Below are positions 35,036-38,904 of a stretch of 64,000 bases of DNA, piece after piece. The notes under the pieces are model-generated. The model worked only from the letters and a program-made list of their open reading frames with translations. It was not told the origin of the DNA and made no database searches. Each line of letters starts with the position of its first letter. Within the stretch, counting starts at the first letter, position 1. The position numbers were made by a program, and so were the translations under genes. The stretch is from the NCBI RefSeq assembly GCF_024298845.1, contig NZ_CP101156.1, forward strand, positions 1,426,001 to 1,490,000, written 5' to 3'. The stretch comes from Natronosalvus amylolyticus (GTDB lineage Archaea > Halobacteriota > Halobacteria > Halobacteriales > Natrialbaceae).

Positions 35036-35419
35036 GCACTCGTACTCGTGGTCGCTATGGGCATAAGGGTGGCACTGACGGCGAGTGGGGACGCCGTCTA
35101 TGACGGTTCTATGGTGCCTTTGTAGCCGTTTTGTGTTCTGACCAAGCCCCCTCGGTATCGCAACGAGGCCGTTCGTGAATTCGCGCGAGCATCCGCGGCC
35201 ACGGCAAAGGTTGCAGGTGTCCGAGACGCCCTCCTCGAGGCCACCATCGCCCAATCAGGTTCCACATCGGGACTGTTGGGGAGCGCCTGCAACGCGGTTC
35301 GTTTTTTCACTGGAGACTCGGTAACTGAAAACGCAGGACAACTCCAGTTTGAAGGCGTGAGCAGCCCCTCGAGCAGGTCAACAGAGCATACTTATTTCAC
35401 GAGTGAGAAGCCGTCGCCA
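35036..35419. other. Intergenic region, no gene recognised
   Basis: About 380 bp between divergently transcribed genes. Open frames on both strands are short and lack motifs. A TATA-like CATACTTATTTC near 35386-35398 sits 27 bp before the GTG of the next gene. Confidence 0.5.
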
Positions 35420-36103
35420 GTGTCGGCAACACACCCCACATCCTCGACCGCGAAACCCTCGCCGTCACTCCCGTCAACACCCGATGGCTACGCGGAACCC
35501 TACGAGTTTTCGTATCCAACGGTGGCGTTGATCGTTGGCTCGAGTCTCCTGGGCATTGGGACGGCCGTCGCAGTCGTGGCTCTGTTGACGGCCGTCCACG
35601 GTCCGGAAACGTTCACATTCTTCGAGGTGAGCGTCGACGGCGAGACGACCACGTACGCGATGGATTTGACCGCTATCGGCATCCCGTTTCTCATCGCCCT
35701 GATTGCAACAACCGTCGTCCACGAAGGTCTCCACGGCCTGGCCTTTCGGTACTATGGCCACGACGTCACCTTCGGCTTCGTACCGTCGATGGGAGCGTTC
35801 TATGCTGCCGTCTTCGGCGAATTCCAGCGCCGAGACGACATGTTGCGCGTCGGCAGTGCGCCACTCGTCGTCATCAGCGCCGTGTGCGTACCGCTGTTGT
35901 TCGTCCCGATTCCGGGCGTGGCCATCACCGCCGGGTTCGTCCTCGTGTTGAACACGGCGGGCGCTATCGGTGACCTGTATGCACTCTGGCGACTCCGAGG
36001 ACTTCCCGAAGGGACGCTCCTCTACGATATCGATATTCGTCGCTCGTACGTGTACGAGCCAACGGCAACGGGAACGGGAAATGATGATAGAAATCCGAGG
36101 TGA
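35420..36103 (+). CDS. DUF3267-type membrane protein with an HExxH motif
   Basis: A 227-residue membrane protein. Helices lie at about residues 35-58, 83-105, 145-168 and 170-190. TTVVHEGLHGLAF (about 97-109) contains the HExxH zinc-protease motif inside a membrane segment, and the following YGHDVTFGF fits the DUF3267/M50-like arrangement. A zinc-binding, possibly proteolytic function is inferred. The N-terminal 30 residues are Ser/Thr/Pro-rich. The GTG at 35420 is chosen over an upstream ATG because of the promoter spacing. Confidence 0.75.
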   Translation: MSATHPTSSTAKPSPSLPSTPDGYAEPYEFSYPTVALIVGSSLLGIGTAVAVVALLTAVHGPETFTFFEVSVDGETTTYAMDLTAIGIPFLIALIATTVVHEGLHGLAFRYYGHDVTFGFVPSMGAFYAAVFGEFQRRDDMLRVGSAPLVVISAVCVPLLFVPIPGVAITAGFVLVLNTAGAIGDLYALWRLRGLPEGTLLYDIDIRRSYVYEPTATGTGNDDRNPR

Positions 36104-36176
36104 GCGCATCCAGCGAGTGGTAGCGGCTGACCGGGACGCGAATCCGGATGTTTACGACGCACTCGAAAACGAGTAA
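36081..36176 (+). CDS. Possible 31-residue microprotein overlapping the DUF3267 gene
   Basis: Starting at tandem ATGs inside the 3' end of the preceding gene in another frame, it encodes MMIEIRGERIQRVVAADRDA followed by an acidic end. The amino acid mix is haloarchaeal, and overlap could couple it to the upstream gene. There is no motif or known homologue. It ends about 20 bp before the first ychF-end repeat. It may be a chance frame. Confidence 0.25.
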   Translation: MMIEIRGERIQRVVAADRDANPDVYDALENE

Positions 36177-36197
36177 CGCGCTACGACTCCTGTTTTA

Positions 36198-36224
36198 TTA
36201 GTTCGTACTCACGATCTAGATCAC
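36198..36224 (-). repeat. ychF 3'-end repeat, copy A (decayed orphan)
   Basis: Read on the minus strand these 27 bp give codons for V-I-stop-I-V-S-T-N-stop. Compared with the true ychF end, Lys AAG has become TAG, the stop is TAA instead of TGA, and the other changes are synonymous (V, S and T codons). It is the leftmost and most decayed of four copies. Confidence 0.85.
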
Positions 36225-36261
36225 CATTTCTGAGTACACACAGTGTACACAACGTATAAAT
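36225..36261 (+). promoter_or_regulatory. Conserved cassette leader A: palindrome plus TATA box
   Basis: Directly after the ychF-end repeat comes CATTTCTGAG, the perfect inverted repeat GTACAC-ACA-GTGTAC (36234-36248), and AACGTATAAA. The same block recurs at 36631 and 37077. TATAAA suggests a promoter, and the palindrome an operator for a dimeric regulator. A further inverted segment (CTTCG...CGAAG) lies downstream at about 36282-36309. Confidence 0.7.
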
Positions 36262-36359
36262 TTAATTTTGGTCTGCTTTGCTCTTCGTGGTCACTGCAGA
36301 TGCGAAGTGGTTAGTTAGAAGCGAAATATGTATTATAAGCTCAGAAATATGATAGTCTA

Positions 36360-36539
36360 ATGTGCATAAATTCCGAGAGGCAGAGCGATATTCTACTGAT
36401 GCTCTTTGCCGTACAGTTTACGATACTTATTCTACTGGTTCCGTGGTTATGGCCACTTCTTCTCTTTCCGGCACTTCTCACGCTACACATAATGAAATCT
36501 GAGTATCACCGTCGATTGAACGAAGAACAACTCCGATAA
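36360..36539 (+). CDS. Cassette 1: 59-residue membrane protein
   Basis: Reads MCINSERQSDILLMLFAVQF at the start, then one long or two closely packed hydrophobic helices (about residues 10-45) broken by PWLWP, and a charged tail (SEYHRRLNEEQLR). The tail is probably cytoplasmic. No homologue is recognised. It lies about 100 bp after leader A, within the array of genes between ychF-end repeats. Base composition is AT-richer than in the surrounding genes, suggesting transfer. Confidence 0.6.
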   Translation: MCINSERQSDILLMLFAVQFTILILLVPWLWPLLLFPALLTLHIMKSEYHRRLNEEQLR

Positions 36540-36603
36540 TTCCTCCGCCTGTCCCGATTATCACGCCCGCGTAAAACGCAGAGTCTTATTTGTTACAGTA
36601 CAA

Positions 36604-36630
36604 TCAGTTAGTAGATACGATCTTGATCAC
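36604..36630 (-). repeat. ychF 3'-end repeat, copy B (identical to the gene end)
   Basis: These 27 bp are identical to the last eight codons and stop of ychF at 37726-37752. The match continues to the left into the ychF 3' flank (TAAAACGCAGA-TCTTATTTGT), about 60 bp in all with a few differences. Confidence 0.9.
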
Positions 36631-36667
36631 CATATCTGAGTACACACAGTGTGCACAACATATAAAC
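36631..36667 (+). promoter_or_regulatory. Conserved cassette leader B: palindrome plus TATA box
   Basis: CATATCTGAG, GTACAC-ACA-GTGTGC (one mismatch to the perfect palindrome) and AACATATAAA. Nearly identical to leaders A and C, although the genes that follow are unrelated in sequence. Confidence 0.7.
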
Positions 36668-36748
36668 ACCATTTTGACCTTTGCGATCACTTTAGATGCA
36701 AACTGAACGACGAAGAGAATATACATGGCAGAATAGTATTATTAGATA

Positions 36749-36967
36749 ATGGCTGAGATAGATACTGCACTTGCCCTCAAGCAGTCAGTTGCACTTATAT
36801 TGACTTTATCAGCAGCGATAGGACTCGTCAATTATATTTTCAGTGACACCCTCGTATCTGGAATTCTATACGGATTTCTAATGGCGGTTCTTATCTTGCT
36901 CTTTTACTATTGGTCAAACATGCTCGGCAATCCCGAACATGCGGGATGGCCGTTCAATAACAAGTAG
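36749..36967 (+). CDS. Cassette 2: 72-residue membrane protein
   Basis: Two predicted membrane helices (about residues 14-32 and 36-58), then NMLGNPEHAGWPFNNK, an uncharged-to-polar tail. No known family is recognised and it does not resemble the cassette 1 or 3 proteins. It lies about 85 bp after leader B. Codon usage contains many AT-ending codons (ATA, TTA), unlike the host's core genes. Confidence 0.65.
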   Translation: MAEIDTALALKQSVALILTLSAAIGLVNYIFSDTLVSGILYGFLMAVLILLFYYWSNMLGNPEHAGWPFNNK

Positions 36968-37049
36968 TGGATAGTCAGCGCGGCCACTCTTTTCCCTGTA
37001 CTGATCGACACACCCATCTAAAACGTAGAGCCGTCCTATTAGAATATTG

Positions 37050-37076
37050 TCAGTTGGTGCTGACGATCTTGATTAC
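37050..37076 (-). repeat. ychF 3'-end repeat, copy C (synonymous variant)
   Basis: On the minus strand it encodes [11 protein letters not shown], the same peptide as ychF, but with different codons for the first V, second V, S and T (GTA, GTC, AGC, ACC). This is expected of a ychF end that evolved under selection in another lineage. Confidence 0.9.
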
Positions 37077-37113
37077 CATATCTGAGTACACACAGTGTAC
37101 ACAACGTATAAAC
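37077..37113 (+). promoter_or_regulatory. Conserved cassette leader C: palindrome plus TATA box
   Basis: CATATCTGAG, perfect GTACAC-ACA-GTGTAC and AACGTATAAA. A second inverted repeat, CTTCGC...GCGAAG, lies downstream at about 37135-37158. Position and sequence match leaders A and B. Confidence 0.7.
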
Positions 37114-37200
37114 TCGATCTTGATTTGCTTTGACCTTCGCGGTCACTACAGGTGCGAAGTGAACAACGGGTTTATATCAGACAATCTTAAACAAATAGCT

Positions 37201-37653
37201 ATGAGTCGCCTTCAGACTATCTCAGATACACTCTCTGATGAAGTTTGGCGATATGCTATCATTGCTGGTCTCGCGTCCACTCCGTTTACAATCATCCTCT
37301 ATTGGCAATCGTACCCTGACTTCAGCAACTCTTTTTCTCCTGTGTTTTTCGCAGGTTTACTCGTCGGATTCCTTGCCAATAGACGTGGGATAGAGGCGGG
37401 TCAAGTTGGGAAGCGAACTGGGCTTGTCGCTGCACTGCCGGTATTATGGCCGTTCCTTGACCTACTTGTGTTCATCTCAGGATTGAGCCAGCCACTAGGA
37501 TTCGGTGGTTTTCAAATCATGGCTGTTATTTTCATATCTGCCGCCAGTATTGGAATTTCTGTACTGGTAGGGATGGTCGGTGCGATACTCGGAGATTGGC
37601 TTACTGGAAAAATAGGTGATTATCGTCTATTGAACGGACAACTCGCTACTTAG
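37201..37653 (+). CDS. Cassette 3: 150-residue membrane protein (DUF5518-like)
   Basis: Four membrane helices are predicted: about residues 18-36, 46-62, 72-98 and 105-132. Between helices two and three is the short basic loop ANRRGIEAGQVGKRTG, and GAILGDWLTGKIGD follows helix four. The arrangement recalls the haloarchaeal DUF5518 membrane family, recognised from memory with moderate certainty. The ATG at 37201 is about 90 bp after leader C. It is followed by the ychF 3' flank, with ychF convergent. Confidence 0.7.
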   Translation: MSRLQTISDTLSDEVWRYAIIAGLASTPFTIILYWQSYPDFSNSFSPVFFAGLLVGFLANRRGIEAGQVGKRTGLVAALPVLWPFLDLLVFISGLSQPLGFGGFQIMAVIFISAASIGISVLVGMVGAILGDWLTGKIGDYRLLNGQLAT

Positions 37654-37725
37654 CGTGCTATGTGTACTACCTGTACTGATCACCGCGCCCGCCTAAAACG
37701 CAGAATCTTATTTGTCACAATATAA

Positions 37726-37752
37726 TCAGTTAGTAGATACGATCTTGATCAC
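37726..37752 (-). repeat. ychF 3'-end repeat, copy D (functional gene end)
   Basis: The intact copy, inside ych[12 protein letters not shown]. Homology with copies A-C stops exactly at the Val codon; beyond it ychF continues with Asp-Gly-Glu-Glu, while the others enter the cassette leader. Confidence 0.9.
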
Positions 37753-38904
37753 GTCTCCTTCCTCGAGTTCGTAGCTATCGCTGATCTCCCGCGAGGAGCG
37801 AGCGTCGACGGCGTGCAGATAGCCGTCGCCAATGTCGGAGTGGACGGCGTAGGCCAGATCGACCGGCGTCGACCCGTCGGGCATCAACAGCGCGTCCGGA
37901 AGAACGTTCCCGGTACCGTCGGTCCACTTCGAGGCGTCCTGCACCGGATACGCCGTCAAGTGGTCGAGTAAGTCGTACACCGCGTAGTTGAGCGCGGCCT
38001 GCACACCCGTCCCATCCCACTGGCCCATCGTCTCGGCGAGGCCCTCGAGTGCGTTTCGCTGCGCATCGCTCACGTCGCCGGTGATCTCGAGGGTGGTGTC
38101 ACCGGGGTCGTACTCGATCAGGCCGCCCTCGGCAGCCTTTCTGAGCGCGCGTTCTCCCTCGGCAGTGGTCGGAATCACGGGTTTGTCGAGTTCGAGCAGG
38201 CGGTCGACGTTTGCTTCGGGTGCAACGACGATTTTGTTCGCGGCGACGACGATTGGCTTGGTTCGCTGGCGGATCTCCGTGGCCAGCGCCTCCCGGTCCT
38301 CGTCGGTCCACTGAATCGGATCGTCGGGGTACTCGAGTCCACGCAGAATTTTGGCGACGTCGGTGGGGGAAGCACCGAAACCGGACATCATCTCCGCCAG
38401 CACGTCGTCGAGGTCGAAGTCGGGCGATCTGGATTTGCGCTCGACGCCCTCCCAGTTTCCCTCGACGATGCCGGCCAGCCACATGTCCATTTCTGCTTCG
38501 ATAAAGTCGATGTCCTCGAGCGGGTCGTGACTCCCGATATCGACGGGTTCGCCCTTCTCGTTCGTCCCTCCGGAGGCGTCGATGACGTTGATGATGACGT
38601 CGGCGTTGGTCAACTCGTCGAGGAACTGGTTGCCAAGCCCCTTCCCCTCGTGAGCCCCGGGCACGAGACCGGCCACGTCGAGCAGTTCGATAGGGACGTA
38701 GCGCTTGCCGCCGTGGCAGTCGTCGCTGGTACAGCGCTCATCGCGCTCGAGACACGGGCACTCGGTCCGAACGTAGCTGACCCCCCGATTGGCGTCGATG
38801 GTAGTGAACGGATAGTTCGCGACGTCCACGTCGGCCATCGTCGCCGCCGTATAGAAGGTGGACTTCCCGGCGTTTGGTTTGCCGGCAAGTGCAATCGAAA
38901 GCAT
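37726..38904 (-). CDS. ychF: Redox-regulated ATPase YchF (Obg-like, TGS domain)
   Basis: A 392-residue Obg-family nucleotidase associated with ribosomes and stress. G1 AGKPNAGKS (residues 7-15), G3 [20 protein letters not shown] (about 75) and the ANK G4 motif are visible, with a Cys cluster [16 protein letters not shown] (about 53-68) typical of archaeal members. The C-terminal TGS domain ends [12 protein letters not shown]. The last eight codons plus stop are repeated three times downstream, so this gene end appears to be an insertion hot spot. Confidence 0.96.

Follow-up and report, generated by a model that had tools for sequence, protein, structure and literature searches.

The locus at the 3' end of ychF

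The window analysed here is a stretch of 64,000 nt of the Natronosalvus amylolyticus genome (contig NZ_CP101156.1, positions 1,426,001 to 1,490,000). Within it, three small ORFs encoding membrane proteins lie in tandem next to the 3' end of ychF, a convergent gene that encodes an Obg-like GTPase (Table 1). The preliminary description reported that each ORF is preceded by the same block, made of a palindrome and a TATA-like box, and that the ORFs themselves are dissimilar. Our comparison confirmed both points. The proteins of 59, 72 and 150 amino acids show no mutual similarity, and the block belongs to a 115-nt repeat present at 36195-36309, 36601-36715 and 37047-37161, the second and third copies sharing 61% and 83% identity with the first. 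The sequence GTACACACAGTGTAC matches perfectly at 36234 and 37086 and with one mismatch at 36640. Allowing up to two mismatches, GTACACNNNGTGTAC has 9 matches in the window against 1.4 expected, a number that none of 100 shuffled sequences got to. The long spacing between TATA-like box and start codon was likewise borne out, with TATA-to-ATG distances, read from the sequence, of 99, 82 and 88 nt.

The repeat had been taken for a leader only, and its extension upstream had been overlooked. A stretch of 83 nt that leads up to and enters leader B (36548-36630) matches 37670-37752, the ychF end together with the adjoining downstream sequence, at 88% identity. Since the repeat reaches upstream to a copy of the ychF end, the unit runs from one ychF-end copy to the next. 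We denote these units cassettes A, B and C, and the short sequence at their borders, a copy of the last ychF codons (GTTNGTNCTCACGATCTTGAT; IKIVSTN* on the other strand), the core.

At the left border of cassette A lies the displaced ychF end, core 1, which in the ychF reading now has an internal stop codon (I*IVSTN*), preceded by what is left of a fourth cassette. The frame of a gene for a DUF3267 (M50-like zincin) membrane protein (35276-36103, + strand) enters this remnant of a Doc cassette, so that the C-terminus of the DUF3267 protein is probably a fusion created by deletion.

Table 1. Features of the cassette array in the window (positions within the window)
Feature	Position	Strand	Evidence or remark
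Remnant of an older, fourth cassette, truncated to its right end: last part of the small ORF behind Doc (..YDALENE*) and flank; left part gone	36078-36200	+	85% identity over 147 nt (with the following core) to the intact Doc cassette found in relative G046
Core 1, displaced ychF 3' end (TTA GTTCGTACTCACGATCTAGAT), attL-like left junction of the array	36198-36221	+	Core comparison
Cassette A, 406 bp, core to core	36201-36606	+	96% identical to lone cassettes at ychF in G050 and G069
Left arm of cassette A, CTGAGTACACACAGTGTACACAAC..TATAAA	36222-36260	+	
Cargo A, 59-aa membrane protein, no family	36360-36539	+	95-97% identical in L009, L010
Right arm of cassette A, CCTGTCCCGATTATCACGCCCGCGTAAAACGCAGA	36548-36582	+	
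Core 2, TCAGTTAGTAGATACGATCTTGAT	36604-36627	+	
Cassette B, 446 bp	36607-37052	+	
Left arm of cassette B	36628-36666	+	
Cargo B, 72-aa membrane protein, no family	36749-36967	+	
Right arm of cassette B	36995-37029	+	
Core 3, TCAGTTGGTGCTGACGATCTTGAT	37050-37073	+	
Cassette C, 676 bp	37053-37728	+	
Left arm of cassette C	37074-37112	+	
Cargo C, 150-aa membrane protein, DUF5518 (PF17647)	37201-37653	+	Pfam E 1.7e-21, 76.9 bits vs cut-off 27
Right arm of cassette C	37670-37704	+	
Core 4, attR-like right junction: present ychF stop and last codons, derived from cassette C	37726-37749	+	
ychF, Obg-like GTPase, convergent; 3' end is the insertion site	37726-38904	-	Pfam YGR210-like_G4, MMR_HSR1, TGS

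Cassettes at ychF in other haloarchaea

With the leader as query, copies were found in 22 of 149 genomes, the host counted. A 60-nt sequence model comprising core and left arm detected it in 36 of the 125 family genomes, representing 15 of 29 genera, and in three genomes from other haloarchaeal families. Carriers among the named records include Natrialba, Natronorubrum, Haloterrigena, Natronococcus and Halostagnicola. We counted 57 cassettes across 39 haloarchaeal genomes, 191-1487 bp in length (median 673) and frequently in tandem; the count includes a few weak matches and misses other cassettes, since G089 and perhaps G021 have a right arm without a recognised leader. All recognised cassettes point the same way with respect to the core.

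In the genomes examined the cassette lies directly at the 3' end of ychF, with two apparent exceptions. In G035 (L113, L090) the array coincides exactly with an assembly break, with ychF ending one contig and the cassettes beginning another. In G163 (L163, G163:C1) the left end of a cassette and ychF are 181 kb apart and their relative orientation is reversed; because of this distance and reversal we read the off-site copy as a cassette probably broken by a large inversion with its breakpoint inside the cassette.

Comparison of the cassettes defined their ends. The left arm, CTGAGTNNACACANNGTACACAAC..ATAAA, is conserved, and its distance to the core is fixed. The right arm, CTGTACTGATC..CTAAAACGCA, is found 51-70 nt (mostly 57-58) before the core in 29 cassettes, and significant matches of a right-arm model fall at cassette ends. 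Cassettes encoding Doc are without the typical right arm, and some cores or left arms are degenerate (G007, G174 and G190). By inspection, the inverted repeat of the core is weak, consisting only of a GATC-TT-GATC symmetry, and no terminal inverted repeats were found in the region. Past the TATA-like box and ahead of the start codon, leaders generally carry a second conserved stretch, similar to GGTCACTACAGATGCG, at ~85-95 nt from the core.

The cargo includes Doc toxin, HIT, GNAT, SnoaL, cupin, esterase, DUF5518 and lipoprotein-like proteins as well as many small membrane proteins that belong to no family, a mix that resembles the cargo of integron cassettes. Doc in the cassettes of relatives scored above the curated cut-offs of both Pfam Fic (PF02661; 31.9 vs 24 bits) and NCBIfam TIGR01550 (57 vs 38.65 bits), and its partner ORF of 46 amino acids has no family. 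The cupin gene of G077 and the esterase gene of G011 read toward the leader, as probably does the cargo gene of one cassette each in G165 and G182. Several cassettes (191, 303, 308 and 353 bp) have no evident gene, and their left arm is still recognisable.

Exchange of the ychF end and borders of the cassettes

Genome comparison showed that the present ychF end, unlike the usual host type, arrives with the cassette, and that the old end is left at the far left of the array. The cassette-type end GTTAGTAGATACGATCTTGAT, together with ~30 nt of nearly identical flank, is attached to divergent ychF genes in several genera. In G066, G070 and G170 the displaced end encodes ..IVSTAS* and the present gene ends in ..IVSTN*; in these three genomes the insertion of a cassette has replaced the C-terminal STAS of YchF with STN. 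The loci concerned, in these genomes and relatives, are L066, L070, L051 and L169. G007 presents a degenerate case of a displaced end. The left and right junctions have a common core and the end of the target gene is rebuilt by the element, as known from integrative elements.

The borders are sharp. Cassette A occurs in two genera (G050 and G069), where 402 of 403 nt are identical and the ychF ends are 84% identical; the borders of both copies fall inside ACGATCTTGAT, and the left flanks past the core are unrelated. Against these two, the window cassette A retains 96% identity and ychF only 75-77%. Similarly, a Doc cassette from another family has 90% identity, compared with 67% for ychF. Taken together, the replaced and displaced ends, the sharp borders, the conserved arms and the single orientation place the predicted crossover in or next to GATCTTGAT.

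These borders bear on whether homologous recombination could account for the arrays, tandem duplication building them and exchange through ychF and the repeats spreading them while the cargo in between is replaced. Haloarchaea do recombine across species, the ~115-nt and 83-nt repeats could recombine, and cassettes with equal ends and unequal cargo exist. Breakpoints arising in this way would be spread through ychF, however, whereas the observed borders on both sides lie in the same ~11-nt core across genera, with diverged ychF directly beyond, and displaced ends of another type remain at the far side. We consider such an origin very unlikely.

The palindrome and TATA block as a possible regulatory element

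The preliminary description proposed that the cassettes share a promoter/operator while their cargo differs. Shared ends and varied cargo were indeed found, but a common operator serving one regulator was not supported. In the 4.2-Mb host genome the whole leader matches only the three window sites (E 5e-54, 5e-26 and 5e-19; next match E 1.5). We rejected a genome-wide operator or regulon, the site not being repeated at other promoters of the genome. The palindrome as a conserved dyad was rejected as well: in 25 sequences we saw no paired change, the right half being almost invariant and the left half variable. We infer that a TACACA repeat at 11-bp spacing, resembling the arm sites of recombinases, fits this pattern better than a dyad operator. 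The second inverted segment described for leaders A and C is present there, but a weaker form also occurs in B; across relatives it is conserved as sequence, not as a common fold. An RNA element was rejected, with no Rfam match at this locus and no common structure on folding the leaders.

Control of the three unrelated membrane protein genes by a single DNA-binding regulator acting through the palindrome is thus extremely unlikely. It would explain why a TATA-like box with an upstream block is conserved ahead of most cargo ORFs and why the start codons follow at similar distances, but not why the block is absent elsewhere in the genome, loses its palindrome in relatives, is retained in cassettes whose cargo is reversed or that have no evident gene, and is strictly linked to the ychF end and core. 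The tie to one site and the conserved core are needless for a regulatory element. The TATA-like box may serve as promoter of forward-reading cargo; the block is not only a promoter, because some cargo faces the leader and some cassettes have no evident gene.

Free forms, recombinase and proposed mode of insertion

Ten integrases of the host genome used as queries found no integrase-domain relative at the ychF loci, the few matches corresponding to the C-terminal, non-integrase part of L130. With the same queries, no recombinase gene was found in the cassettes. No free attP was found in phage and plasmid collections or in pattern scans of IMG/VR viral contigs. A Xer-like recombinase is present in 123 of the 125 family genomes and would be the simplest candidate for action in trans. 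The patchily distributed integrase L123, present in 20 of 36 cassette genomes and 34 of 89 others, was rejected as a cassette-linked integrase, its association being unconvincing and not significant (Fisher p = 0.11).

The cassettes might instead be remnants of a larger family of integrative elements or viruses targeting ychF, that is, deletion derivatives that kept both att ends. Some archaeal viruses do integrate into protein-coding genes (PMC8371274), and the cassette ends resemble an att site with arms. Random deletion would hardly produce units of 190-1490 bp with both ends intact and different single cargo genes, however, and the near-identical small cassettes in two genera indicate movement at that size. 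With neither an integrase at the ychF loci examined nor a matching attP in the phage, plasmid and viral-contig collections, we regard a remnant origin as unlikely.

We conclude that, very probably, each of the three blocks forms the left end of a mobile cassette without an integrase, the three cassettes having been inserted in tandem by site-specific recombination at the 3' end of ychF. The cassette would probably move as a circle, with an attachment site made of the right arm ~58 nt before the core, the core itself, and the left arm CTGAGTACACACAGTGTACACAAC..ATAAA. Crossover with ychF, or with a core already in an array, would lead to insertion, leaving the old ychF end on the far side and supplying ychF with a cassette-borne new end, in line with the genome comparison; repeated insertion would build arrays. 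Strand exchange would most likely be carried out by a tyrosine recombinase acting in trans, either the Xer-like enzyme of the host or one from a passing element. The palindrome and TATA block would then be mainly an arm of the attachment site, and perhaps also a promoter for forward-reading cargo.

Relation to known systems of mobile gene cassettes

Integron arrays, including CALINs and archaeal integrons (PMC9668308), are likewise tandem arrays of small cassettes, mostly with one gene and mostly in one orientation; their cargo is diverse, including a toxin gene and many genes of unknown function, and the integrase can be supplied in trans. The ychF arrays have in common with them the tandem layout, the short mobile cassettes and the diverse cargo. 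They differ in that they are without IntI, that the core copies the end of a host gene instead of being an attC site, and that each cassette has two conserved arms and its own promoter-like leader at the fixed site ychF. No IntI gene was found beside the array in the integrase searches of the ychF loci, which alone is not decisive because CALINs also have none. Neither the GTTRRRY crossover nor the conserved fold of attC was found, the leaders having no common fold and the predicted crossover falling at GATCTTGAT. The terms 'Halobact' and 'halophil' are not mentioned in the archaeal integron paper (PMC9668308).

The dif modules of Acinetobacter plasmids, flanked by 28-bp dif-like sites and thought to be moved by the Xer recombinase of the host, are also short, integrase-less units carrying adaptive genes or toxin-antitoxin pairs (PMC6449649). 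In contrast, the ychF units sit at the end of a chromosomal gene, have extra arms and all face the same way, and by inspection the core does not contain an 11-6-11 inverted-repeat Xer site such as would be seen at both ends. Archaeal integrative elements such as SSV, SNJ2 and pT26-2 encode their own tyrosine integrase and mostly target tRNA genes, protein-coding genes being possible; they follow the same attL/attR logic, an intact gene being rebuilt from the element's copy of the gene end, and their att sites may require flanking nucleotides (PMC8371274). The ychF cassettes differ from them in their size (~0.2-1.5 kb), in having no integrase of their own and in stacking up as arrays at a protein-coding gene. 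MITEs and casposons are also small mobile DNA, and casposons too can occupy gene 3' ends; the ychF cassettes differ in that no terminal inverted repeats were seen and in that the gene end is replaced, not duplicated. The new ychF end is unlike the host's own sequence and is hence borne by the element, not a target-site duplication.

By the features tested, the ychF cassettes work like an integron array or dif modules and are a member of neither. The chances are about even that they represent a separate archaeal platform for gene capture, without IntI or attC, in which a host tyrosine recombinase acting in trans stacks single-gene cassettes at the near-universal ychF and rewrites its C-terminal codons each time. 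We found no earlier description of these cassettes in the open literature searched, a scope outside which most subscription journals lie. Such a platform would give haloarchaea an integron-like collection and exchange of small genes at one fixed site, across genera and families. The exchanged pool would comprise a toxin, acetyltransferases, hydrolases and many unknown membrane proteins and lipoproteins, all findable by the 60-nt signature. The cassettes also show that mobile DNA can swap the C-terminus of a core cellular GTPase. Which recombinase moves the ychF cassettes is a directly testable question.

Two cassettes deserve separate mention. In G087 (L095) the 191-bp cassette, which has both ends and no gene, lies to the left of the ychF end, at a distance of ~1566 to 1375 bp; the cassette that follows has a left end almost identical to its own. 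In G050 (L112), a 281-bp cassette has the same right arm as the window cassette B and different content, which suggests that cargo has been swapped between conserved ends.
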